Shown here one piece after another: positions 1-34,558 of a stretch of DNA of 36,456 nt. This stretch comes from Nitrospirota bacterium (GTDB lineage Bacteria > Nitrospirota > Thermodesulfovibrionia > Thermodesulfovibrionales > UBA6898). The stretch is taken from the NCBI GenBank assembly GCA_004321925.1, contig SCQH01000023.1, positions 1 through 36,456 on the forward strand, in the 5' to 3' direction. Under the pieces are notes generated by a model that had not been told where the DNA came from, did not search any database, and saw only the letters and a list, made by a program, of their open reading frames with translations. Both the position numbers and the translations under genes were made by a program. Every line of letters begins with the position of its first letter. Position 1 is the stretch's first letter.

Positions 1-3000
1 GGGTGCTGTATTTTGCGGCCAATGATGTGACTCACGGGGTTGAGTTGTGGAAGAGCGATGGGACAGAAGCAGGGACGGTTCTGGTGAAGGACATCGCGCC
101 CGGATCATCCCACTCAAATCTTCAACGTTTAACGAACATCAACGGGGTTCTGTATTTTATGGCCAATGTCGGGACGCATGGATTTGAGCTGTGGAAGAGT
201 GACGGGACAGATGCTGGCACGGTCATGGTAAAGGACATCAATCCCGGTATAGGCGATTCTCACCCAGACAATATGACCGATGTGAATGGAGTGCTGTATT
301 TTATGGCAAATGACGGCACACATGGGTATGAGTTGTGGATGAGCGACGGCACAGAGGCCGGTACTGTGATAGTGAAGGATATCTATCCCGGTACAGGTAA
401 TTCTAATCCTCACGATCTGATACATTTCAACGGGGTGCTGTATTTTGTGGCCAATAATGGAACGAATGGGTCAGAGTTATGGAAAAGCGATGGCACAGAA
501 GCAGGCACCATGCTGATGAAGGACATGAACCCTGGTTCAGAAGATTCTTACACGTTCGGTCTGACAAATGTGAATGGGGTCCTGTATTTTGGTGCATATG
601 ATGGGACTCATGGGATTGAACTATGCAAGAGCGATGGCACAGAAGCAGGTACGATGATGGTGAAAGATATAAATCCAGGTATAGGGTCTTCGTATCCGTT
701 CAACCTGACAAATGTGAATGGGGTGCTGTATTTTGTGGCCAATGACGGAATGAACGGCTATGAGCTGTGGAAGAGCGACGGGACTGAGGCGGGTACGGTG
801 ATGGTGGAGGATATCTTCCCCGGCCCGACAGGTATGGTGATAGTGAAGGACTATTTCCCCGGCCCAATTGGTACGAATCCTAATTATCTGACAAATGTGA
901 ACGGGGTGCTGTATTTTGTGGCCGATGATGGGACACACGGGAGTGAGCTATGGAAAAGCGACGGGACGGAAGCAGGGACGATAATGGTAAAAGATATCAT
1001 GCCATCAGGGTCTTCAACGCCGTTCAATCTGACGAATGCCAACGGAGTGCTGTATTATTTTGCTTCTGATCCAATAAATGGACAAGAGATATGGAAAAGT
1101 GACGGAACAACATTAGGGACCGTAATGGTGACGAATAACTGGCCATCACGTGATTCGTTTCCGTCAAAGCTAACAAATGTGAACGGGGTGCTGTATTTTG
1201 TGGCCGATGATGGGACGAATGGGAAGGAACTCTGGAAGAGCGACGGAACAGCATCAGGGACTGTGCTGGTAAAGGACATCAATCCCGGCTTTGGTGGGGC
1301 AGATCCAACAAATCTGACAAATGTCAACGGTGTGCTCTTTTTTGAAGCAAATGACGCGATTAACGGGCATGCGCTGTGGAAGAGCGATGGGACAGTCTCA
1401 GGGGCCGAGAGGGTAATGAACCTTTTGCCCTGCGTATACAGCTCGTGCCCTAATACTCTGACGAATGTTGCTGGGGTGCTGTATTTTGCGGCCAATGAAG
1501 GGACAAACGGATACGAGCTGTGGAAGAGCGACGGGACAGCGGCAGGGACAGTACTAGTGAAGGACATCAACCCCGGCTCAGCCGATTCGTTTCCGAAAAA
1601 TCTGACGAATGTAAATGGGGTACTTTATTTTGTAGCCAACAATGGGACGAACGGGAATAAACTCTGGAGGAGCGACGGAACAGAAGCAGGGACTGTGATG
1701 GTTAGGGTCGAAGCAGGGTGGGGGCTTTCACCTGATTCATCGAATTTGACGGATGTCAACGGGGTGCTGTATTTCAGTGCTACTGATCCTGTTAACGGGC
1801 AGGAGTTGTGGAAGAGCGACGGTACAGAGGCAGGGACAATACTTGTGAAGGACATTAATCCCGGTACAAGCAGTTGGTATCCATCAGACCTGACGAATGT
1901 CAACGGCGTGTTATATTTTGTGGCCGATGATGGGACACACGGGCGTGAGCTATGGAAGAGCGACGGGACAACGGCAGGCACCATAATGGTAAAAGATATC
2001 ATGCCAGCAGGCTCGTATTTCAACCTGACAAATGTAAATGGGATTCTTTATTTTCTGACCACCTTTGGAACGGACGGGTTTAAGCTCTGGAAGAGCGATG
2101 GTACGGATGCTGGTACGGTAATGGTGAAGCATATCGCGCCCGGAGGTGTCGTTCCGCAAAACCTGACGAATGTGAATGGAGTTTTGTTTTTTTTCATTGG
2201 CGGGACGACCGGATATGAGCTCTGGAAGAGCGATGGTACAGAAACCGGCACTGCAATGGTGAAAAATCTCTTTCCCTATAGCAATAATAATTGGACAACG
2301 TGGCCATATTTGACGAATGTCAATGGTGTGCTCTATTTCAGTGCCTATGATGCCGAATACGGCCTTGAGTTATTTGCTTTAGATGTTGCTGCCAACCCTG
2401 AATCCCCTTCAAAGATAGGCATCTTCGACCATGGCACCTGGTATCTGGATTCCAACCAGAGCTGGGCATGGGAGGGGACTCCTGCTGATACTCTTGGGAT
2501 ATTTGGTGTAGGTCTGACAAATGCTACCCCTGTGATCGGTGATTGGAATGGAGACGGCACAAGCAAGATAGGGGTGTTCACTGACGGCATGTGGTATCTG
2601 GATATGAACCGTAACTGGCAGTGGGACGGAGAACCAACGGATAAGGTAGGCATATTCGGAGTAGGCATCCCCGGTGCCATCCCAGTAGTGGGCGATTGGA
2701 CCGGAGACGGGATAACTAAGATAGGTGTTTATGTTGATGGCACCTGGTATCTGGACCTGAACAACAACGGTCAGTGGGATGGCGAGCCGACAGACAAGAT
2801 AGGAACATTTGGTATAGGCCTGACTGGAGCTATCCCTGTTGTAGGTGATTGGACCGGAACCGGTATAACTAAGATCGGTGTCAACCTGGATGGCTACTGG
2901 TACCTTGATCTGAACAATAACTGGCAGTGGGACGGAGAGCCGACGGACAAGATGGGATTATTCGGGGTCGGCCTGACCGGGGCTGTTCCGGTCGTCGGTG

Positions 3001-3161
3001 ACTGGAACGCAGACGGGACAACAGAGATCGGTATCTATCAGGATGGCCTCTGGTACCTCGATAAGAACCGCAGTTGGCAGTGGGACGGGGAACCTGCGGA
3101 CCAGTTCGGAGTATTTGGTGTCGGCCTCACCGGTGTTGTTCCCGTGCCGGGGAAATGGTAG
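1..3161 (+). CDS. ELWxSDGT-repeat secreted/surface protein, 3' part
   Basis: The gene is already in frame at the left edge, so the N-terminus, including any signal peptide, is missing. What remains is about 1,053 residues and ends in TAG at 3159-3161. The first ~800 residues are 16 tandem ~48-residue units built on ELWKSDGTEAGT, VMVKDINPG and LTNVNGVLYF, plus a degenerate 17th (ELFALD). They match the ELWxxDGT repeat family, predicted to form beta-propeller-like surface structures. The last ~240 residues are five ~49-residue units of the form KIGxFxDGxWYLDxNxxWQWDGEPTDKxGxFGVGLTGAxPVVGDW; the final one ends in PGKW instead of GDW. No transmembrane or sorting segment is visible at the C-terminus. 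Repeat 6 carries an extra internal duplication (792-869). Adhesin or extracellular-matrix function is a guess. Family assignment is firm; function is unknown. Confidence 0.85.
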   Translation, partial: VLYFAANDVTHGVELWKSDGTEAGTVLVKDIAPGSSHSNLQRLTNINGVLYFMANVGTHGFELWKSDGTDAGTVMVKDINPGIGDSHPDNMTDVNGVLYFMANDGTHGYELWMSDGTEAGTVIVKDIYPGTGNSNPHDLIHFNGVLYFVANNGTNGSELWKSDGTEAGTMLMKDMNPGSEDSYTFGLTNVNGVLYFGAYDGTHGIELCKSDGTEAGTMMVKDINPGIGSSYPFNLTNVNGVLYFVANDGMNGYELWKSDGTEAGTVMVEDIFPGPTGMVIVKDYFPGPIGTNPNYLTNVNGVLYFVADDGTHGSELWKSDGTEAGTIMVKDIMPSGSSTPFNLTNANGVLYYFASDPINGQEIWKSDGTTLGTVMVTNNWPSRDSFPSKLTNVNGVLYFVADDGTNGKELWKSDGTASGTVLVKDINPGFGGADPTNLTNVNGVLFFEANDAINGHALWKSDGTVSGAERVMNLLPCVYSSCPNTLTNVAGVLYFAANEGTNGYELWKSDGTAAGTVLVKDINPGSADSFPKNLTNVNGVLYFVANNGTNGNKLWRSDGTEAGTVMVRVEAGWGLSPDSSNLTDVNGVLYFSATDPVNGQELWKSDGTEAGTILVKDINPGTSSWYPSDLTNVNGVLYFVADDGTHGRELWKSDGTTAGTIMVKDIMPAGSYFNLTNVNGILYFLTTFGTDGFKLWKSDGTDAGTVMVKHIAPGGVVPQNLTNVNGVLFFFIGGTTGYELWKSDGTETGTAMVKNLFPYSNNNWTTWPYLTNVNGVLYFSAYDAEYGLELFALDVAANPESPSKIGIFDHGTWYLDSNQSWAWEGTPADTLGIFGVGLTNATPVIGDWNGDGTSKIGVFTDGMWYLDMNRNWQWDGEPTDKVGIFGVGIPGAIPVVGDWTGDGITKIGVYVDGTWYLDLNNNGQWDGEPTDKIGTFGIGLTGAIPVVGDWTGTGITKIGVNLDGYWYLDLNNNWQWDGEPTDKMGLFGVGLTGAVPVVGDWNADGTTEIGIYQDGLWYLDKNRSWQWDGEPADQFGVFGVGLTGVVPVPGKW
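792..869 (+). repeat. 39-bp tandem duplication inside ELW repeat 6
   Basis: Two adjacent in-frame 39-base units, 792-830 and 831-869, encode G-T-V-M-V-E-D-I-F-P-G-P-T and G-M-V-I-V-K-D-Y-F-P-G-P-I. The other ELW repeats have only one copy of this strand. The unit looks like a small slippage or recombination duplication that has since diverged. Confidence 0.75.
2412..3158 (+). repeat. Five ~147-bp tandem repeats encoding WYLD/GDW modules
   Basis: Five consecutive units each encode one ~49-residue module starting KIG or EIG, with the conserved cores WYLD-x-N-x3-W, WDGEP-T/A-D, GxFGVGL and PVVGDW. The Asp/Asn/Gly-rich GDWxGDG joints resemble the calcium-binding loops of FG-GAP/VCBS-type repeats. 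Calcium binding is inference only. The modules cap the C-terminus of the ELW-repeat protein. Confidence 0.75.
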
Positions 3162-21504: not shown

Positions 21505-22560
21505 ATGACACCGGCGTGTATTATCGGGCTGAGCGGGCATTCGGGCTCAGGCAAAACGACCCTTATCGAAAAGGTACTGCCTTTGCTGAAAAGGGAAGGG
21601 CTCTCTGTCGGGGTCCTGAAGCATACCTCCCACCACATCCTCTCCCTCGATCAGGAGGGTAAGGATACTGACCGGTTCTACCGGGCGGGAGCTGAGGTTG
21701 TGGCGGCACAGGACACAACGCAGATCTTTTCACGGTCGGCCGATCAGGAGGGGGACCTCCTGCATGCCCTTGGCGTCTTCCCCTGCGGGCTCGATCTGGT
21801 CATTGTCGAAGGCCATAAGGGCAGCAATATCCCGAAGGCATGGTTCGAATCAAAAGCACCTCAACCGGATGCTCATCAGAATACGGAATATAAAACGGTC
21901 ATCTGCCGTGACGACCCGGGGCATGTTGAAAAAATTCTGGAGTTCATAAGGAAAGAACTGGAAGCACAGTTTCAGAGAAGGCCGGTCTTTGCGGGTCTGC
22001 TGATCGGGGGGAAGAGCAGCCGGATGGGCAGGCCGAAGACCCTGCTTGAGATCAGCGGGACGACCCTTGTTGAGCGTACTGCAGGCATTCTCGCCGGCGT
22101 GGCGCCGCGCCTGCTGCTTCTGGGCTCGGCTGAACTGCCCGGGTCATTGCTCCCGGCAGACCGTCTTCCGGATGCAGACGATTCACGGGGACCCCTTTCG
22201 GGCATGCTCAGCGCCTTCAGGTGGGCCCCCCAAAGCACCTGGCTGATATCCTCGGTCGATATGCCTCTGATGCGCCGGGAGGCCTGGGAATGGCTGCTGG
22301 CCCAGAGAAGGCCGGGGGCCTGGGCTGTCATGCCGCAGCGGGAGGGCTCCGAAAAAGTGGAGGTGACCGGCGCCTGCTATGAACCGATGATATTCGGATA
22401 TGCAGAATCCCTGGCTCAGAAGGGGATCGCACGGCTCCATGCCATGGCCTCGCATCCGAAGGTCCTCAAGCCAGTGGTCCCGAAGCATCTCGCAGATGCC
22501 TGGGGGAACGTCAACACCCCCGACGAATGGGAACGGATCCTCTCAGCAGCCGGTCAGTGA
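21505..22560 (+). CDS. MobB-MobA fusion, molybdenum cofactor guanylyl transfer
   Basis: A single 351-residue protein joins two functions. Residues 1-~150 are MobB, the GTP-binding adapter: P-loop GHSGSGKTTL, then LKHTSHHILSLDQEGKDTDR and FYRAGAEVV. Residues ~158-351 are MobA, which adds GMP from GTP to Mo-molybdopterin: GLLIGGKSSRMGRPKTLLEI, GPLSGMLSAF and the metal-site SSVDMPLM. The product, MGD, serves DMSO-reductase-family enzymes, nearly all of which are respiratory or redox enzymes. This fits an organism whose cytochromes and TorD-type chaperone lie nearby. The stop overlaps the convergent cytochrome gene by seven bases. There is no Shine-Dalgarno of normal spacing. Confidence 0.92.
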   Translation: MTPACIIGLSGHSGSGKTTLIEKVLPLLKREGLSVGVLKHTSHHILSLDQEGKDTDRFYRAGAEVVAAQDTTQIFSRSADQEGDLLHALGVFPCGLDLVIVEGHKGSNIPKAWFESKAPQPDAHQNTEYKTVICRDDPGHVEKILEFIRKELEAQFQRRPVFAGLLIGGKSSRMGRPKTLLEISGTTLVERTAGILAGVAPRLLLLGSAELPGSLLPADRLPDADDSRGPLSGMLSAFRWAPQSTWLISSVDMPLMRREAWEWLLAQRRPGAWAVMPQREGSEKVEVTGACYEPMIFGYAESLAQKGIARLHAMASHPKVLKPVVPKHLADAWGNVNTPDEWERILSAAGQ

Positions 22561-24380
22561 GTAAACGCTCCTTTTTTGTGATCAGCCTGCAGTTTCCTGT
22601 AAAGGTCCCGGTCCCTGACCGCAGGGAGGGCAAAGTCTCCCGGTAAGCTCCATTTGTCCCTGAAGGGCAAAAGCTCCGGAGGAACAGAAGTGCCGTCAGC
22701 GCCTTTAAAATCGGTCACCCGCAGGCCCTTCCGGTCGGCGATTATGCTGTACTCGCCATCCTCCAGGTTCTTATACGAACCGCCCTCGAATTTTACGACG
22801 ATCTTCTGCGCCTCTGATGCATGGCAGTCGTCACAGTCCCTGGACTTCCCGGTCGCGTGGGCAATGCGGTCGAGGTTCAGCCAGACCATGGTGTTGCGGT
22901 CCTTGTCGTCGAGGTCCCTGACCAGCCCGGTTATGGCATAGGAGTCGTTCGAGAAATAACGCCGGTCGATCGCGGCCTCCGGTCGGTTCCTGAAGATGAG
23001 CTGTTTCGACAGTTTGACCTCCTCAGGTTTCACATTCCCCGACGTATGCGGGACCGGATGCACCGGTATCCATATGCCTTTTGGGTTCTTTATCAGCAGC
23101 GGCCTGATCGCTTCCACCTGGTAGTCCTGTATCCTTGTGAGCGGGTTCTCAGCCCCGGCAGGGCCGACCGCTGACCAGAAATTAAAGGCATAGCCGCCGA
23201 TCAGCCGGGTATGACATGCCGCGCAGTCGACGTTCCGGTGAGGTCCTGCCGCGTGTGTTCTGACCACCTGCGCATGGCATTTGTCACAGCTGACGTCCCG
23301 CCTCAGGTCAGCATGGGCCTTTGTCTGCCTGTTGGGCTCATGGCAGTCAACACATTCGATGTTGTTTTTCATGTGAACGTCCTGCTGCCGGTTCAGGATC
23401 TCTTTGCCGTTATGTCCGGCCTGGGTAAATTCAGCCCTGAGGTATCCGTCCCCCCGTCTCCGCTCCAGCGGGCCGGCATGACAGATAAAGGCCTTTCCGC
23501 CGCCATAGCAGGAAAAGGACGAGGGTTTTTTGACGAAGGTATGGGCGATGCTCTGCTCATTTCCCGCTTTCTTTCTGGTGTCGAGATGGCAGTCGAGGCA
23601 TCCGACATGGCATTTATTGCAGGTCCTCTGGGTGTTATGTGACATCTTTTCAGAAAGACGGGCCGTTGAATGTTCATTATAATAATTCATGTTCTCGGTG
23701 GTGAAATTGTCCTGGCCGGGCCTGGTGAGCTGCCCGGTCCAGAGACCGCAGCTCTGCGGTCCTGCCGGCCCGGTCCAGGCCCTGTACTGGCTCTGGGTGT
23801 GGGCCCCTGCTGCACCGCCCATCGGGCTTTTCAGAAAGCTCTGCACGATGTCCGTATGGCACTTCCCGCAGGTCTGTTCCGCAATAACAGGGTTGAAGGC
23901 GAAGGTCAGGGGATTTTTGTCCTGCAGGAGGAGCAGGTTGTAAGCGGGATTGTCCCTGAGCCGTCCGTCGGCCTGTACCTTAGGAAGCAGGTGGGTCGAC
24001 CGGTTTGTGCCTTCCGGTCTCAGCTCCTTCCAGGCTTCGCGGTCCTTGGCGGGCATGCTGTTTCTGTTTATGACATTGAACTTTGGGTCGGACAGGCGGG
24101 CAGATACGACGCCCTGGTGTGCTTCATCCTTCAGCGCTGCCCGGGGATTGCCGAGATGACAGTCCGTGCATGCCGCCTGCATCCGCGTCTGCTGCCTGAC
24201 CGCTTCCTCGGTCAGGTAGAACTGCGGCGCCCCTTGTTCGGATATCCTTGCCCTGTCCCCGTGGCAGAGGACGCAACTGTCCCCGCCTGAGGAGGCAGGG
24301 GCTGCGAAGACTGCAAGGACAGACAAGACCAGCAGAGAAATGTGTCTGACACCTGATACTGCCCGACCGTTCTTCTTCAT
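22554..24380 (-). CDS. Exported nonahaem c-type cytochrome with an extra C-x8-CH motif
   Basis: The 608-residue protein starts at an ATG with GGAGGAG upstream and has an N-terminal export signal (~1-31). Nine CxxCH haem sites start at Cys36, 71, 171, 254, 261, 343, 365, 386 and 516. A tenth possible site, Cys291...Cys300-His301 (CYGGGKAFICH), has eight residues between the cysteines instead of two. It is followed by AGPLERRRGDGY. A 118-residue haem-free stretch separates the ninth-last and last haem regions (~391-515). The protein is probably periplasmic or outer-surface. I recognise it as a multihaem cytochrome of a family found in metal- and metalloid-reducing bacteria but cannot name it. 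No partner gene adjoins it; neighbours are MobBA (convergent) and a divergent zinc-ribbon gene. Confidence 0.9.
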   Translation of the reverse strand: MKKNGRAVSGVRHISLLVLSVLAVFAAPASSGGDSCVLCHGDRARISEQGAPQFYLTEEAVRQQTRMQAACTDCHLGNPRAALKDEAHQGVVSARLSDPKFNVINRNSMPAKDREAWKELRPEGTNRSTHLLPKVQADGRLRDNPAYNLLLLQDKNPLTFAFNPVIAEQTCGKCHTDIVQSFLKSPMGGAAGAHTQSQYRAWTGPAGPQSCGLWTGQLTRPGQDNFTTENMNYYNEHSTARLSEKMSHNTQRTCNKCHVGCLDCHLDTRKKAGNEQSIAHTFVKKPSSFSCYGGGKAFICHAGPLERRRGDGYLRAEFTQAGHNGKEILNRQQDVHMKNNIECVDCHEPNRQTKAHADLRRDVSCDKCHAQVVRTHAAGPHRNVDCAACHTRLIGGYAFNFWSAVGPAGAENPLTRIQDYQVEAIRPLLIKNPKGIWIPVHPVPHTSGNVKPEEVKLSKQLIFRNRPEAAIDRRYFSNDSYAITGLVRDLDDKDRNTMVWLNLDRIAHATGKSRDCDDCHASEAQKIVVKFEGGSYKNLEDGEYSIIADRKGLRVTDFKGADGTSVPPELLPFRDKWSLPGDFALPAVRDRDLYRKLQADHKKGAFTH

Positions 24381-24486
24381 CTGCTCCTCCCCGGATGCAT
24401 TATTCAATAACTGAGCTCCATATTTGATTATACCGCGATATGCCTGTTTTTGAGCGCTTTTTTGAGGTCCCCGGAATATGATTATT

Positions 24487-24516
24487 ATCATAGAAATAGA
24501 TCTATATTCTGGTAAA
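24487..24516 (-). promoter_or_regulatory. Candidate promoter of the nonahaem cytochrome gene
   Basis: On the minus strand, TTTACC (24511-24516), an 18-base spacer and TATGAT (24487-24492) would give a leader of about 100 bases before the ATG at 24380. The element lies immediately beside the divergent -10 at 24518-24523. Confidence 0.5.
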
Positions 24517-28419: not shown

Positions 28420-29706
28420 ATGAGAAATTACGATAATTCACGGAAACTCTTCAAACGGGCCAGCCGGGTCATCCCCGGAGGGGTAAACAGTCCGGTGCGC
28501 GCCTTCAGGGCGGTCGGCGGCAACCCTCTTTTCATTGAACGGGCAAAAGGTTCGCGGATATTTGATGCCGACGGCAATTCCTATATTGATTATGTCCTCT
28601 CCTGGGGGCCGATGATCCTGGGACATGCAAACCCGGTCGTGCTCGCTGCCCTGAAAAAGGCCCTGGCAAAAGGCACAAGCTACGGGGCCCCGACGGCCCT
28701 TGAGATAGAGCTCGCAGAGCTCGTCCTTAAGATCTACCCCTCTATGGACAAGGTGCGGATGGTGAATTCCGGCACCGAGGCCACGATGAGTGCGATCCGC
28801 GTTGCACGCGGCTTTACCGGCAGGGACAAGATCATCAAATTTGAGGGCTGTTATCACGGCCATGCCGACGGACTCCTGGTCAAGGCAGGCTCAGGAGCGG
28901 CGACCTTTGGTGTTCCGGACAGCCCCGGCGTTCCGGAATCCTATGCCCGAAATACCGTTACCCTTCCGTTCAACGATATCCCCGCATTAAAGAAGACGAT
29001 AGAAAAGCAGTGGCGGGAGATCGCCTGCGTTATCATCGAGCCGGTGGTCGGCAACATCGGGTGTGTACTGCCCCGTCCCGGCTATCTTGAGGCCCTCAGG
29101 AAACTGACGAAGGCCCACGGGATCGTCCTTATCTTTGATGAGGTGATGACCGGGTTCCGGGTGGCATTTGGCGGCGCCCAGGCCCGTTATGGCATCAAGC
29201 CTGACATGACCTGTCTTGGCAAGGTCATCGGAGGCGGGCTTCCTGTCGGGGCATACGGCGGCAGGAAAGAGATCATGTCGATGGTATCTCCCGAAGGACC
29301 GGTCTATCAGGCAGGGACCCTGTCCGGCAATCCGCTGGCAATGACCGCCGGAATCACAACGATAAAGGAGCTCTCAAAGGCGGGGGCATACAGGGACCTG
29401 GAGAAAAAGGCCTCCCAGCTCGAGCGCGGTCTTAAGGATGCTGCTAAAAGGGCAGGCGTCAGGACCAGGTTCTATCGCGCGGGAAGCATGTTCTGCACCT
29501 ATTTTGCCGGGGCAGAGATCGTTGATTATCAGACCGCCAAAAGCGCCGACGCGACGCTCTTCGCGCGGTTCTTTACCGCCATGCTCCAGAGGGGAGTGAA
29601 CATTGCCCCGTCCCAGTTTGAAGCAGGGTTCATGTCCCTTGCACATTCCGAAAAGGACATCGAGCAGACCGTTGCGTCGGCCTATGATGTCCTGAAAAAG
29701 CTGTAA
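28420..29706 (+). CDS. hemL: Glutamate-1-semialdehyde 2,1-aminomutase
   Basis: This 428-residue PLP enzyme converts glutamate-1-semialdehyde to 5-aminolevulinate, the first committed haem intermediate in the C5 pathway. Diagnostic features: [13 protein letters not shown] near the N-terminus, [20 protein letters not shown], the PLP-phosphate region [19 protein letters not shown] with Asp240, and Lys268 in [17 protein letters not shown] as the Schiff-base lysine. Length is standard. It lies 54 bases upstream of the 11-haem cytochrome, and co-expression would match haem supply with demand. Confidence 0.97.
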
Positions 29707-29760: not shown

Positions 29761-30759
29761 ATGCTCAATCCGTTTAAGATGTTCAGTAATTTACTCACCT
29801 GGTTCAGCGAAAAGGTGTCGGCCAAGGTAAAGATCATGCTGGCGGTCGGCATGCTCATGTTCATCATCCTGATGGGCTACGTCGCTTACCGGATCAATGA
29901 TTATTTCGAGAACGACCCGCAGGCCTGCATGACCTGCCATGTCCATGATGACGCCAACAATGCCTGGCATGTCAGCGAGCATAAGGACGTGAACTGTCAT
30001 GAGTGCCATCATTCGACAAAGAAGGACCAGGTCATCCAGATGTACCGTTTTGTCTTTATGGGCGTCAAGTCGGTTGCCCCGAGGCATGGCGAGGTGATCG
30101 TAGCCTGGAAGATCTGCTATTCCTGCCACTGGGAAGGGAACAAGAAATTCCCGAAGGCAAAGCTGATGAACAACTCACAGCTTCATTCAAAACATGTGTT
30201 CATGGAAAAGATAGAGTGCGTCAAGTGCCACGGCTACAAGATCCATCAGTTCACTGCCGAACCCCGGTTCTGTGTCAAATGCCACGAGGGCAGGGAGGTC
30301 CATGGCATCGGCATGGAGGCGCTGGCCTGCCTGAATTGCCATACGGACAGGACAAAGGACCTTAAGCCCGGCAGGAAGAAATGTCTCTATTGCCACGGCA
30401 GTGAGAAGAACCGTCAGGAACTGCTTGCCGACGGAACGCTGGATGTCACGCATTATAAGCCTGACGAAAAGACGATCAAAAAGGCGATCAAGATCGTGGT
30501 GCCCGACAATGCCCCGATGCAGTTCGACTGCTATCAGTGCCATAAGCCTCATAAGACGGCCCGGCCGGACTGGGGCAACTGCAAGACCTGTCATCCCAAC
30601 ACGGCCACGGTCGGCAAGCATGCGATGCATATCGACATGGGCCTGAAATGCAAGGACTGCCACAAGCCTCACATCTGGAAAGTGACGCCTGAGCAGGCGA
30701 AGAAGGACTGCGTGAAGTGTCATGAATATAAGGACCCCAAGACCTTTATATCACAGTAA
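29761..30759 (+). CDS. Membrane-anchored 11-haem cytochrome (NapC/NrfH-like N-terminus)
   Basis: This 332-residue protein has one N-terminal transmembrane helix (~24-44, IMLAVGMLMFIILMGYVAY) and 11 CxxCH haem sites, the first at Cys56 (CMTCH) and the second at Cys79 (CHECH). The anchor plus first haems resemble NapC/NrfH quinol dehydrogenases. The remaining haems form a c-type wire through the periplasm. AAGGGAGG precedes the ATG. A strong terminator follows immediately, so it is separated from the tetrahaem/Fe-S/NrfD genes. It would move electrons from the quinone pool, or from the neighbouring NrfD complex, to periplasmic acceptors. The final acceptor cannot be read from the sequence. Confidence 0.92.
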   Translation: MLNPFKMFSNLLTWFSEKVSAKVKIMLAVGMLMFIILMGYVAYRINDYFENDPQACMTCHVHDDANNAWHVSEHKDVNCHECHHSTKKDQVIQMYRFVFMGVKSVAPRHGEVIVAWKICYSCHWEGNKKFPKAKLMNNSQLHSKHVFMEKIECVKCHGYKIHQFTAEPRFCVKCHEGREVHGIGMEALACLNCHTDRTKDLKPGRKKCLYCHGSEKNRQELLADGTLDVTHYKPDEKTIKKAIKIVVPDNAPMQFDCYQCHKPHKTARPDWGNCKTCHPNTATVGKHAMHIDMGLKCKDCHKPHIWKVTPEQAKKDCVKCHEYKDPKTFISQ

Positions 30760-30773
30760 CTGAACAGTATCAG

Positions 30774-30810
30774 AGGGGCAGACCGGATAATCGGGCTGCC
30801 CCTTTTTTTT
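30774..30810 (+). terminator. Intrinsic terminator after the 11-haem cytochrome gene
   Basis: Arms AGGGGCAG (30774-30781) and CTGCCCCT (30796-30803) plus an inner ACC/GGG side, followed by eight Ts. The next promoter's -35 begins inside or just after this T-run. Confidence 0.93.
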
Positions 30811-30839
30811 GACGATTTTTATCGGCTTTGCTGTATAAT
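30809..30839 (+). promoter_or_regulatory. Promoter of the tetrahaem/Fe-S/NrfD operon
   Basis: TTGACG (30809-30814), a rather long 19-base spacer and a perfect TATAAT (30834-30839). The leader would be ~30 bases and contains GAGGTG six bases before the ATG at 30877. Confidence 0.6.
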
Positions 30840-30876
30840 TAGTAAATAAATAAAATCGCAAAACGAGGTGCGCTCA

Positions 30877-31350
30877 ATGAAGAACCATGTTTTCAGGCCG
30901 TTACTCGTAGTGATCGGCCTTGTTGTTCTGGTCCTGCTGATCAGGCCGTTCTATGTGCCGAAGGATTTCGGCGTACATGAACGCGGGTACATGTATGGCT
31001 GGTACCGTCAAAGCAATACCGAAGACTGGAAAAAAGTGAAGGTCAAATACCAGGGCTCTGAGTATTGCAAGGACTGTCATGCCGACAAGCTTGAAAGCAT
31101 CTCCCAGTCTCCTCACATGATCATCCAGTGCGAAAATTGCCATGGTCCCGCACTTGATCACCCGTCTGACCCCGAGAAGCTGACGATCGACAGGAGCAGG
31201 GGGCAGTGCCTGCGCTGCCATGCAAAACTGTCCTACCCGAAGAGCAGCAGGGCGGGCATCAAGGGCATAGACCCTGACACCCATAATGCCGATACCGAAT
31301 GTGTCTCATGCCATAACCCGCATAAGCCTTCCCTGGAGGGACTGAAATGA
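30877..31350 (+). CDS. Membrane-anchored tetrahaem cytochrome c
   Basis: This 157-residue protein has an N-terminal helix (PLLVVIGLVVLVLLI) and four CxxCH sites: CKDCH, CENCH, CLRCH and CVSCH. The start at 30877 has GAGGTG at good spacing; an in-frame GTG three codons upstream lies within that ribosome-binding site. Its stop overlaps the Fe-S gene's start (ATGA). Tetrahaem cytochrome + four-cluster ferredoxin + NrfD is the composition reported for Cbc4-like menaquinol oxidoreductases in Geobacter and is reminiscent of Nrf, Hmc and Qrc modules. It is probably the periplasmic electron exit or entry point of the complex. Confidence 0.9.
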   Translation: MKNHVFRPLLVVIGLVVLVLLIRPFYVPKDFGVHERGYMYGWYRQSNTEDWKKVKVKYQGSEYCKDCHADKLESISQSPHMIIQCENCHGPALDHPSDPEKLTIDRSRGQCLRCHAKLSYPKSSRAGIKGIDPDTHNADTECVSCHNPHKPSLEGLK

Positions 31351-32129
31351 TATCACGGAGAGATTTATTAAAGAAAGCAGGCAAGGCAGTAGCCGGGGCC
31401 TCCATATCCCTTGCAGCGATAGAGTTCCTGAGCCCGGCGCGGGTCCAGGCCCTGAAGGCGGACAAGGCGGTCCGCTGGGTATTTCTGGTCGATACCTACA
31501 AGTGTGTCGGCTGCGGCCTGTGTGTCAAGGCCTGCAAGAACGAGAACGAGATCCCGTATGACGCCAATGTCACGCGTACCTGGGTGGAACGGTATGTCAT
31601 CACCAGCGACGGCAAACTGCATGCCGATTCCCCGAAGGGCTGCCGGGACGGGTTCACCACCAGCAAGATCGATGTCGGGATGGGAAAGTTGCAGGACATC
31701 AAGAACGAGGACATCAAAAAGGCCTTCTTTGTCCCGAAGCTCTGCAACCAGTGTGAGAACCCGCCCTGTGTTCAGGTCTGTCCTGTCGGTGCGACCTACC
31801 AGGCCCCGGATGGGGTTGTGCTTGTCGACAGGACATGGTGTATCGGCTGCGGCTACTGCATCATGGCATGTCCGTATGGTGTGCGGTTCTTTCATCCCAA
31901 ATACCATACTGCGGAAAAATGCAATTTCTGCTATCACCGCATAAACAAGGGGCTCAAGACCGCCTGCGTTCAGGCCTGCCCGTTCGGGGCGCGCCAGATA
32001 GGGAACATGAAAGATCCGGATGACCCCGTAACCAAGATCATCACGACCGAACGAGTGGGCATTCTGAAGAGCGAATTCGGAACGAAGCCCCAGGTATTTT
32101 ATATCGGGCTGGACGAGGAGGTAAAATAA
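31347..32129 (+). CDS. Tat-exported four-cluster ferredoxin subunit (NrfC/PsrB/HmcB-like)
   Basis: This 260-residue protein begins MISRRDLLKKAGKAVAGASI, a twin-arginine signal (SRRDLLK), so it is folded with its clusters in the cytoplasm and exported. Sixteen Cys are arranged for four [4Fe-4S] clusters: CVGCGLCVKACKNE, CNQCENPPCVQVCP, CIGCGYCIMACP and CNFC...CVQACP. This is the DmsB/NrfC layout. It passes electrons between the NrfD membrane subunit and the tetrahaem cytochrome. It overlaps the cytochrome stop by four bases and ends one base before nrfD-like, so the three are co-translated. Confidence 0.95.
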   Translation: MISRRDLLKKAGKAVAGASISLAAIEFLSPARVQALKADKAVRWVFLVDTYKCVGCGLCVKACKNENEIPYDANVTRTWVERYVITSDGKLHADSPKGCRDGFTTSKIDVGMGKLQDIKNEDIKKAFFVPKLCNQCENPPCVQVCPVGATYQAPDGVVLVDRTWCIGCGYCIMACPYGVRFFHPKYHTAEKCNFCYHRINKGLKTACVQACPFGARQIGNMKDPDDPVTKIITTERVGILKSEFGTKPQVFYIGLDEEVK

Positions 32130-32130
32130 G

Positions 32131-33384
32131 ATGGTACATGGAGAAATCTGGACCTTAAAAGAGCTCTTTGTCACACCGAACGAATATATCTACTGGAGCG
32201 TGCAGATCGTCATGTATCCCTTCATGACCGGGCTGGTTGCCGGGGCGTTCGTGCTTTCCTCGCTCTATCATGTCTTTGGCATCAAGGAGCTGAAGGACAT
32301 CGCACGTTTTGCGCTTGTCTTTTCCTTTGCACTCCTGTTTGCCGCCCCCATGCCCATCATCCTGCATCTGCAGCATCCGCTTCGGGGGATCAATGTCATG
32401 ATGACGCCCCATTTTACATCGGCGATCGCTGCCTTCGGAATCGTCTTTTCGGGCTATGGCGCGATCGTCGCATCCGAGCTCTGGTTCCTTTACCGGAAGC
32501 ATTTTGTGGAGCAGTCCCTGTTGCTGAAAGGGAAGCAGGACCGGAGCCTCGGCGAGAGCCTGCTGTACCTTATCTTTACCGTGCTCACCCTGGGGTCCTT
32601 CGACATCACTGAAGAGGCCCAGCACAGGGATGAGAAGGCGATAAAGGTGCTGGCCGGCATCGGTATCCCGGTCGCCTGTTTTCTGCACGGCTATGCCGGC
32701 TTCATCTTCGGCTCGGTCAAGGCCAACGCGCTCTGGATGACGCCCCTGATGCCGGTCATCTTCATCATGTCGGCGGTCGTCTCGGGCATTGCGCTCTGCA
32801 TGCTCACGTATATCGCGACCATGGAGATCAGGAAGTTCCTGGCCTGCAGGCAGCAGTCTCCGTCCTATTCACCCGAGTGCCGTGAAGAGATAAAGAGCGT
32901 CGAGGTCAAGGTCATCCAGATGACCGCGAAATACCTCCTGTTCTTCCTGATCTTTGCCATAAGCCTTGAACTGCTCGATCTTATCTTCAGGGGCTACACC
33001 GCCACGAAATCCTGGGATGTGCTCAGAAGCGTCATCTACGGCAAGGATTTCACCTCCATTTTCATCCTGCAGTACGGACTCGGGAACTTAATTCCGTTCA
33101 TTATTTTCCTGACCCCCGGCCTTACCATCCGGCGGGCGGTCGTCGGGGTCCTCTTCGTCATGTTCGGCGTCTTCATGATGAGATGGAATGTTGTTATCGG
33201 CGGCCAGGCCTTTTCCCTGACCTTCAACGGATATATGCATTATCACCTGCCTATCATCCCGCATGACTGGGAAACGCTCAAGGAAGGCCTTTTCGGGGCA
33301 CTAGGGGTCTTTGTCATGCCGTTCGTCCTCTTCTATTTCCTTACCAAGATATTCCCGATCTTCGGTCTCAAGGAATCGCATTAG
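32131..33384 (+). CDS. NrfD/PsrC-family quinone-interacting membrane subunit
   Basis: This 417-residue polytopic membrane protein has about ten hydrophobic helices. It begins MVHGEIWTLKELFVTPNEYI and has conserved-type features such as YWSVQIVMYPFMTGLVAGAF, LQHPLRGINVM and the late helices ending ITFNGYMHYHLPIIPHDW-like sequence. NrfD/PsrC proteins exchange electrons with menaquinol and carry no cofactor of their own. The length, ~100 more than E. coli NrfD, is like PsrC/HmcC-type members. It is followed by a strong terminator. Direction of electron flow cannot be read from sequence. Confidence 0.92.
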   Translation: MVHGEIWTLKELFVTPNEYIYWSVQIVMYPFMTGLVAGAFVLSSLYHVFGIKELKDIARFALVFSFALLFAAPMPIILHLQHPLRGINVMMTPHFTSAIAAFGIVFSGYGAIVASELWFLYRKHFVEQSLLLKGKQDRSLGESLLYLIFTVLTLGSFDITEEAQHRDEKAIKVLAGIGIPVACFLHGYAGFIFGSVKANALWMTPLMPVIFIMSAVVSGIALCMLTYIATMEIRKFLACRQQSPSYSPECREEIKSVEVKVIQMTAKYLLFFLIFAISLELLDLIFRGYTATKSWDVLRSVIYGKDFTSIFILQYGLGNLIPFIIFLTPGLTIRRAVVGVLFVMFGVFMMRWNVVIGGQAFSLTFNGYMHYHLPIIPHDWETLKEGLFGALGVFVMPFVLFYFLTKIFPIFGLKESH

Positions 33385-33406
33385 CAGTGTATGAAGACAG
33401 CATCGT

Positions 33407-33445
33407 CTCCCTGCCTTTTTCCGATAAGGCAGGGAGTTTTTTTTT
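33407..33445 (+). terminator. Intrinsic terminator after the NrfD-like gene
   Basis: A perfect 11-bp stem (CTCCCTGCCTT at 33407-33417, AAGGCAGGGAG at 33426-33436) with an 8-base loop and nine Ts. It lies only 39 bases before the TorD-type start. Confidence 0.95.
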
Positions 33446-33475
33446 ATGGGGTCGTGAAAAAGGCGGTATGCGCTC

Positions 33476-33991
33476 ATGATCTTTCCTGAAGAGGACAGCC
33501 GTGAACGGGCAGATGCTTACCGTGTGCTGGCGGATCTTTTTTCGAGGCCGCCCCGGCAGGACCTGCTGATAAAGGTGAGGGCGGACCTTGAGCTCGATTC
33601 TCAGGAGTCCGAATACGAGATCAGCAGCGATTTCAATGACCTGTTCCTTATCCCGCAGGGCAGGGTCCTGCCGCTCGAATCGGTGTTCGTTGGTTCAGAC
33701 CCTGTCGGCACACGCTATGCCCTGATGCAGTTCTATACCCAGGCCGGTCTGACGATCGATGAGGAATTCCGTTTTATACCTGATCACCTCTCCCTCGAAT
33801 TTCTCTTTATGTCCTACCTGATCGGGACCGGCAATACCCCGCTGCAGGAGGATTTTCTGGATGAGCATATCCTGCGCTGGGTCCCGGCCTTCTGCGAAGA
33901 AGCGGCACAGTATGCGCAGACAGGTTTTTACCGCGAGATCGCAGACCTGACGAGTGCGTTCGTCCTGAAGGAATACCAGGGGTTTGAATAG
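33476..33991 (+). CDS. TorD/DmsD/NarJ-family redox enzyme maturation chaperone
   Basis: This 171-residue all-helical cytoplasmic protein has ERADAYRVLADLFSRPP at the start and the family signature PDHLSLEFLFMSYL, equivalent to the E-PxDHL-xxEL motif of TorD-like chaperones. These bind Tat signal peptides and hold molybdoenzymes until the cofactor is loaded. No molybdoenzyme catalytic subunit is encoded nearby; the adjacent Tat substrate is the Fe-S subunit. The gene has only a weak GGCGG-type ribosome-binding site and begins just after a strong terminator, so its expression may depend on read-through or a cryptic promoter. Confidence 0.85.
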   Translation: MIFPEEDSRERADAYRVLADLFSRPPRQDLLIKVRADLELDSQESEYEISSDFNDLFLIPQGRVLPLESVFVGSDPVGTRYALMQFYTQAGLTIDEEFRFIPDHLSLEFLFMSYLIGTGNTPLQEDFLDEHILRWVPAFCEEAAQYAQTGFYREIADLTSAFVLKEYQGFE

Positions 33992-34002
33992 GAGATGACG
34001 CC

Positions 34003-34233
34003 ATGGGCATGAATCTTTTTTCGAAGGATTACCTTCAGGCCTGGTCTGTCGGGCTGGGCCTGGTCATATCGACCTTTGTCGGTCTTGGGATCGGCTACTG
34101 GCTTGACCGGTGGCTCAATACCTCCCCCTGGCTGACGATCATATTTCTCATCCTCGGCATCATCTCAGGGTTTCGGGACCTTCTGAGGATGGCGCGGCGG
34201 CAGGACAATGGACCTGATCCAAAAGATCATTAG
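34003..34233 (+). CDS. AtpZ-like F0F1-ATPase accessory protein
   Basis: This 76-residue membrane protein has two helices (~14-34 and ~43-60) and the AtpZ-type pattern GLGIGYWLDRWLNTSPWLTII...GIISGFRDLLRMARR. AGGAG lies before the ATG; a second in-frame ATG follows two codons later. AtpZ proteins lie upstream of atpI in many bacteria and assist F0 assembly or Mg/Ca transport. The 3' end overlaps the next gene by 26 bases. Confidence 0.85.
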   Translation: MGMNLFSKDYLQAWSVGLGLVISTFVGLGIGYWLDRWLNTSPWLTIIFLILGIISGFRDLLRMARRQDNGPDPKDH

Positions 34234-34558
34234 ACGCTCGGTCCTGGTCCTGGTCCCCCTGGCGGCTGCCTCCTCCCTCATCGAATGGTGGCGCTTCCCC
34301 CTGGGGGTCCTGGCCGGGGGAGGGCTTGCCCTGGCCAATATCAAGGGGCTTGCCTGGGCGGTGCAGGGGCTTCTGGGTACGCAGCGGGCCACCCTCGGCA
34401 TGCTTTTTTTCAGTCAGTTCCGGTTCTTTGCGCTCTTTATCATCCTTGCGCTGCTCGCCTCTTTCAGGCTGGTCAACATATACGGCGTTTTCGCCGGATT
34501 TACGGTTGTCTTTGGTGTTGTGATGGTCGAAGGGTACCGGCACGCGAAAACAGGCTGA
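34208..34558 (+). CDS. ATP synthase subunit I-like protein
   Basis: This 116-residue protein has four predicted membrane helices (LVLVPLAAASSLIEWW; FPLGVLAGGGLALANIKGLA; FFSQFRFFALFIILALLASF; IYGVFAGFTVVFGVVMVEGY). The topology, the ALANIKG motif and position after AtpZ fit the AtpI family, which helps assemble the F0 c-ring. The usual following genes atpB and atpE are absent here; a diguanylate cyclase comes next. Family call is from topology, motif and context. Confidence 0.75.
   Translation: MDLIQKIIRRSVLVLVPLAAASSLIEWWRFPLGVLAGGGLALANIKGLAWAVQGLLGTQRATLGMLFFSQFRFFALFIILALLASFRLVNIYGVFAGFTVVFGVVMVEGYRHAKTG

Follow-up and report, generated by a model that had tools for sequence, protein, structure and literature searches.

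A predicted menaquinol:cytochrome c oxidoreductase operon with an 11-haem cytochrome in Nitrospirota, located beside a TorD-AtpZ-AtpI unit

Gene content of the locus

The window analysed here is a 36,456 nt stretch of DNA (SCQH01000023.1), one contig of a 3.2-Mb draft genome of a Nitrospirota bacterium (order Thermodesulfovibrionales; G000 in the comparisons below). Between 29761 and 33384 it carries an electron-transfer module of four genes, encoding two multihaem cytochromes (CytA and CytB), an iron-sulphur (Fe-S) protein with a twin-arginine translocation (Tat) signal, and a membrane protein of the NrfD family. A gene for a short TorD-family chaperone follows. An earlier note on this DNA had called these five open reading frames, and all were found at the positions it gave, with the haem counts and Tat start that it claimed; NrfD and TorD pass their Pfam cut-offs. 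Two elements had been overlooked: NrfD and TorD are separated by a strong terminator-like hairpin, and TorD is directly followed by an AtpZ gene. The features are as follows.

28420..29706, + strand: hemL, glutamate-1-semialdehyde aminomutase; outside the complex (synteny; annotated from sequence and general knowledge)
29761..30759, + strand: CytA, 11-haem c-type cytochrome; 11 CXXCH motifs, one N-terminal membrane helix, NapC/NrfH-like first haems
30868..31350, + strand: CytB, tetrahaem cytochrome, CbcS-like; 4 CXXCH motifs, PF14537/PF14522, N-terminal membrane anchor
31347..32129, + strand: Tat-signal Fe-S protein, CbcT/DsrO/NrfC-like, four [4Fe-4S] clusters predicted; PF13247
32131..33384, + strand: NrfD-family integral membrane subunit, predicted to bind quinol, CbcU-like; PF03916, 126.6 bits
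33407..33445, + strand: predicted intrinsic terminator, 11-bp G+C-rich stem (hairpin 33407-33436) then T9; hairpin scan
33476..33991, + strand: short TorD/NarJ-family protein, 171 aa; PF02613, 69.3 bits (cut-off 22.2)
34003..34233, + strand: AtpZ (ATPase_gene1), 76 aa; PF09527, 68.0 bits (cut-off 26.6)
34208..34558, + strand: AtpI, ATP synthase subunit I family; PF03899, 22.7 bits, just under the cut-off of 25.1

The region holds 15 CXXCH motifs over six frames, against a mean of 0.1 in shuffled sequence. Packing is tight on both sides of the hairpin: the CytB and Fe-S genes overlap by 4 bases and a single base separates Fe-S from NrfD, while AtpZ starts 11 bases past the end of TorD and overlaps AtpI. 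The true start of CytB is likely the ATG at 30877. In most relatives, hemL is the upstream neighbour of the module.

The tetrahaem-FeS-NrfD core and known complexes

The Fe-S protein begins MISRRDLLKK, with the twin arginines invariant across 14 relatives, and its 17 cysteines are sufficient for four [4Fe-4S] clusters. Its best solved relative is PsrB of Thermus (2vpw_B, 'NRFC PROTEIN'; E 6e-51), and the TtrB, DsrO and NrfC models of NCBIfam all scored below their cut-offs. The NrfD profile found no solved relative by sequence. Over its full length, NrfD is 66-91% identical to its counterparts in most of the order and 64-73% identical to those of Desulfobacterota.

Comparisons were made with genomes from across the order (labelled G) and with fetched loci (labelled L). 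CytB lies directly 5′ of the FeS-NrfD pair in 31 of 33 Nitrospirota and in 43 of 47 other loci, the exceptions being mostly cut by contig ends. The same core order recurs in Nitrospirota, Geobacteraceae, Desulfuromonadales, Desulfobulbaceae, Syntrophaceae and a few other groups; the core is a complex of known kind, judged by gene content and order, and is widespread in Desulfobacterota.

Two described systems have this composition. Cbc4 (CbcSTU), a menaquinol oxidoreductase of Geobacter, combines a tetrahaem c-type cytochrome (CbcS, a periplasmic four-haem protein), a 4Fe-4S protein and an NrfD-type subunit in one operon (PMC11434368, PMC10989804), the same three parts as here and likewise lacking a molybdenum (Mo) subunit. 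The Geobacteraceae loci fetched have the same gene order, with NrfD 65-72% identical to that of the window. The DsrOhPh-tetrahaem locus of cable bacteria and Desulfobulbales, proposed to transfer electrons from quinone to periplasm (PMC13047784), also joins an NrfD-family protein, an Fe-S protein and a tetrahaem cytochrome outside the dsr operon, as is found here; four Desulfobulbaceae loci (L249, L254, L256 and L261) were fetched. Both systems differ from the module in what accompanies the core. Where Nitrospirota add an 11-haem cytochrome, cable bacteria have TMH1, a protein with one helix (PMC13047784), and no 11-haem cytochrome lies beside the core in the 39 non-Nitrospirota loci with sufficient upstream sequence, which sets the module apart from Cbc4.

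The core of one Geobacteraceae locus (L238) adjoins narG. This recalls cbcSTU-2 of G. metallireducens (Gmet_0325-0327), whose neighbourhood we take, as a lead only, to include nar genes.

The earlier note held the combination to be unlike textbook Nrf, Psr, Hmc or Qrc operons, barring a described complex of identical composition. For the named systems this stands. The NrfC model reaches 163.8 of the 377.6 bits needed and the NrfD model 36.2 of 347.6, and there is no NrfA in the window; E. coli-type NrfABCD has NrfC- and NrfD-like subunits in common with the module, whereas the operon here has neither NrfA nor NrfB, and the NrfA-like gene that the genome does encode lies next to NapA on another contig. 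The NCBIfam equivalogs HmcA, HmcB, QrcC and QrcD all score the module proteins far below cut-off. Mo-dependent members of the complex iron-sulphur molybdoenzyme (CISM) family (Psr, Ttr, Phs, Dms) have a molybdopterin catalytic subunit in the operon, and in 112 loci none lies inside the module. The claim does not extend to the core, for which complexes of identical composition are described (PMC11434368, PMC10989804, PMC13047784).

The eleven-haem cytochrome

Similarity of CytA to NrfH and NapC is limited to its N-terminal part and is sub-threshold: TIGR03153 (NrfH) gives 38.2 bits over residues 28-159 (cut-off 134.2), and PF03264 gives 15.3 bits (cut-off 24.1). Among loci with at least 2.5 kb of upstream sequence, 26 of the 28 from Nitrospirota, and 0 of the 39 from other phyla, have the 11-haem cytochrome near the core. 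The two are still close together in loci whose genes have been reordered (L193, L196, L198 and L200). Because it keeps company with the core across Nitrospirota in this way, CytA behaves as a partner, unlike TorD. This putative lineage-specific electron acceptor or partner of the core is most likely the new element of the module. No description of an 11-haem addition to a tetrahaem-FeS-NrfD core was found in the literature searched, and a search for 11-haem cytochromes of Nitrospirota brought up no relevant work.

At the first haem of CytA (residues 56-66), some relatives have the NrfH-type motif CXXCHxM and the clade of the window has CXXCHxH, a hint that this haem may have another ligand in that clade.

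Separation of TorD from the module

NrfD and TorD are 91 bases apart, and the gap holds the strongest terminator-like site in the region, an 11-pair hairpin with T9 after it, whose score none of 500 shuffles of the gap reached. Comparable hairpins lie at the same place in loci L043, L044, L079 and L059, and 3′ of NrfD in genomes G002, G003, G015 and G029. The module transcript is predicted to end at this hairpin, before TorD.

A profile built for the short TorD separates it cleanly from ordinary TorD proteins (at least 160 bits against at most 97 bits) and finds 43 copies in 42 of the 111 genomes of the order. Of these genes, 40 share a strand with AtpI and lie no more than ~540 bases from it, against nine within 1.5 kb of NrfD; AtpI itself has an orthologue in 105 of the 111 genomes. 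Both TorD and the module are present in 25 genomes, TorD only in 17, the module only in 40 and neither in 29, so that in a Fisher test, which ignores phylogeny, their occurrence is independent (odds ratio 1.07, p = 1.0). Three genomes of the same genus or family that are 98-100% complete (G003, G004 and G010) have the module and no PF02613 match, with the caution that G003 holds a weak 46-residue fragment matching the short-TorD profile at a contig edge, away from the module locus. The converse arrangement, hemL-TorD-AtpZ-AtpI with no module in between, occurs in G009 and G033, and TorD was detected in none of the 47 non-Nitrospirota modules within the flanks fetched.

The predicted terminator, linkage to AtpI rather than NrfD, independent occurrence and the TorD-less genomes that have the module speak against the view, adopted in the earlier note, that the chaperone is part of the module. 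A link between them is not supported; TorD is a neighbour of the module and not a component, the two probably being unrelated units side by side. The short TorD is conserved beside AtpZ-AtpI across the order (33476-34558 in the window and the 40 orthologous loci), and a full-text literature search found no published link between TorD and AtpZ-AtpI.

Absence of a molybdoenzyme subunit

The earlier note was correct that no Mo subunit is encoded in the module, and the window contains no Mo-enzyme gene. Loci were scanned with a Mo-enzyme profile and 14 single queries, and none of the 112 loci, from two phyla, has a Mo gene inside the module. Matches in the flanks, among them three Mo genes counted as within 5 kb of the module or past its end, are parts of other systems, namely a nitrate reductase in L238, a formate dehydrogenase of NADH type in L219, NuoG-like genes 8-9 kb away (L060, L247) and a divergent gene ~7.5 kb away (L050). 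The tetrahaem subunit holds the place of the catalytic subunit throughout the loci compared.

A multi-kb insert between NrfD and TorD in several relatives was considered as a possible carrier of a Mo subunit and rejected. It consists of other redox genes, encoding a tetrahaem cytochrome, a DsrO-like Fe-S protein, a DsrP-like NrfD with CBS domains, a Rieske protein, cytochrome b and a pentahaem cytochrome. Since a redox module fills the stretch from NrfD to TorD/AtpZ in several relatives, this place takes insertions. This second redox module adjoins the first in many relatives; it lies at 10633-16319 of L047 and similar ones are found in L042, L064, L190, L193, L195 and L230; in some, the DsrP-like NrfD is fused to two CBS domains, a fusion that looks unusual.

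The short TorD protein and its client

The protein passes PF02613, has the TorD/DmsD fold and keeps the conserved D-H pocket (D103-H104, an invariant pair), and so belongs to the redox-enzyme maturation protein (REMP) family. The AlphaFold2 (AF2) model (pLDDT 83.8) is nearest, among solved folds, to YcdY (9m26, TM 0.75) and DmsD. It has the fold and D-H motif in common with NarJ, TorD, DmsD and YcdY (REMPs, PMC4464133) and differs in being short, confined to one order and linked to AtpZ-AtpI; in a phylum-wide sample search, the short form was found solely in this order.

Several accounts of this chaperone were weighed. If the module had once possessed a Mo subunit, lost here, TorD could be its relic: CISM enzymes (Psr, Ttr, Phs, bisC-hybA-nrfD) are likewise built with FeS and NrfD subunits and often have a TorD gene alongside. 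Simple loss should leave relatives with a Mo subunit in the same cluster, a sign the earlier note had named, yet none was seen in 112 loci, the flanking Mo genes belong to separate systems and the tetrahaem subunit takes the catalytic place throughout, making a relic extremely unlikely. The earlier note had also suggested that the chaperone acts on the Tat Fe-S subunit of the module, in Tat proofreading or cluster assembly. The genes are adjacent on the same strand, the Fe-S protein bears a twin-arginine signal, and proteins of the TorD family bind Tat signal peptides (PMC3712460); the intervening terminator, the independent occurrence in 111 genomes, modules without the TorD family in G003, G004 and G010, the 17 genomes with TorD and no module, and its absence near all 47 non-Nitrospirota modules (fetched flanks) largely refute this suggestion, which we regard as very improbable.

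The chances are about even that the short TorD matures a Mo enzyme encoded elsewhere, either NapA or a Tat-exported formate dehydrogenase, and a Mo enzyme encoded in trans is the default view of its client. It is the sole PF02613 gene in the genome of the window, it retains the motif and fold, and this genome encodes NapA and several Tat-signal formate dehydrogenases. However, G004, a genus-mate without TorD, has orthologues of the G000 set of Mo enzymes, NapA included, and no single enzyme tracks TorD, the TorD-bearing G000, G009 and G033 having no Mo-enzyme orthologue in common apart from NuoG-like proteins, which two of them have. In addition, the usual chaperone of NapA is NapD. NapA as a dedicated client was rejected as a strict pairing, because it also occurs in G003 and G004, which lack the short TorD. 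A client that is not a Mo enzyme, possibly linked to AtpZ-AtpI, is an unlikely account of this clade. AtpZ-AtpI functions in metal transport and ATP-synthase rotor assembly. The TorD family can serve a non-Mo enzyme, because its member YcdY is tied to a zinc enzyme (PMC4464133).

In G000, NapA (above the cut-off of its NCBIfam equivalog) directly adjoins an NrfA-like multihaem cytochrome on another contig (C94; L071, 3011-7506), a pairing of genes that suggests nitrate reduction to ammonium in this organism.

Other features of the window

On the minus strand, 22554-24491 encodes a 645-aa multihaem cytochrome with ~10 CXXCH motifs and weak matches to the ExtN/ExtO/ExtS models of Geobacter. The contig end probably truncates a surface or secreted protein at 1-3161, seen as a repetitive open frame of 1052 aa with ELWKSDGTEAGT-type repeats.

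Proposed function

The locus is best read as two units, and we consider it probable that the first, separate from the TorD-AtpZ-AtpI unit, encodes a menaquinol:periplasmic cytochrome c oxidoreductase, joined by an 11-haem partner specific to the lineage. From gene content, order and homology, the terminator-like hairpin and the linkage and independence statistics, we infer an electron path, its direction and all functions, as follows. Unit 1 (29761-33384) would encode an enzyme of the CbcSTU type, in which no Mo subunit is expected. NrfD would bind and oxidise quinol in the membrane. Electrons would then cross the Tat-exported periplasmic Fe-S subunit by way of its four clusters, reach CytB, the tetrahaem cytochrome anchored in the membrane, and go on to the 11-haem CytA, the addition made in Nitrospirota. 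CytA, held in the membrane by a single helix, may act as a branch point or a long wire, leading either to outer-membrane cytochromes or to soluble acceptors in the periplasm, such as the NapA/NrfA-like enzymes that other parts of this genome encode. The quinol-to-periplasm path of the earlier note is supported at the level of prediction. Unit 2 (33476 onward) would comprise TorD-AtpZ-AtpI, with TorD a REMP-family chaperone whose client is encoded elsewhere.

Several points weigh against this reading. The likeness to CbcSTU and DsrOhPh is one of composition and gene order, and the sequence is compatible with electron flow in either direction, oxidising quinol or reducing quinone. For CytA, AF2 gave a poor and uninformative model (pLDDT 51.6). 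A terminator after NrfD is not seen in every relative, most of the genomes compared are drafts, and the test of independence leaves phylogeny aside.

With TorD in a separate unit, the apparent paradox of a Mo-enzyme chaperone in a Mo-free operon is removed, and the conserved TorD-AtpZ-AtpI block becomes a small question in its own right. Should the client prove not to be a Mo enzyme, the short TorD would be the second branch of the family, after YcdY, to have left Mo enzymes. The module itself places a widespread electron-transfer operon of Nitrospirota beside Cbc4 and the DsrOhPh-tetrahaem locus of cable bacteria.

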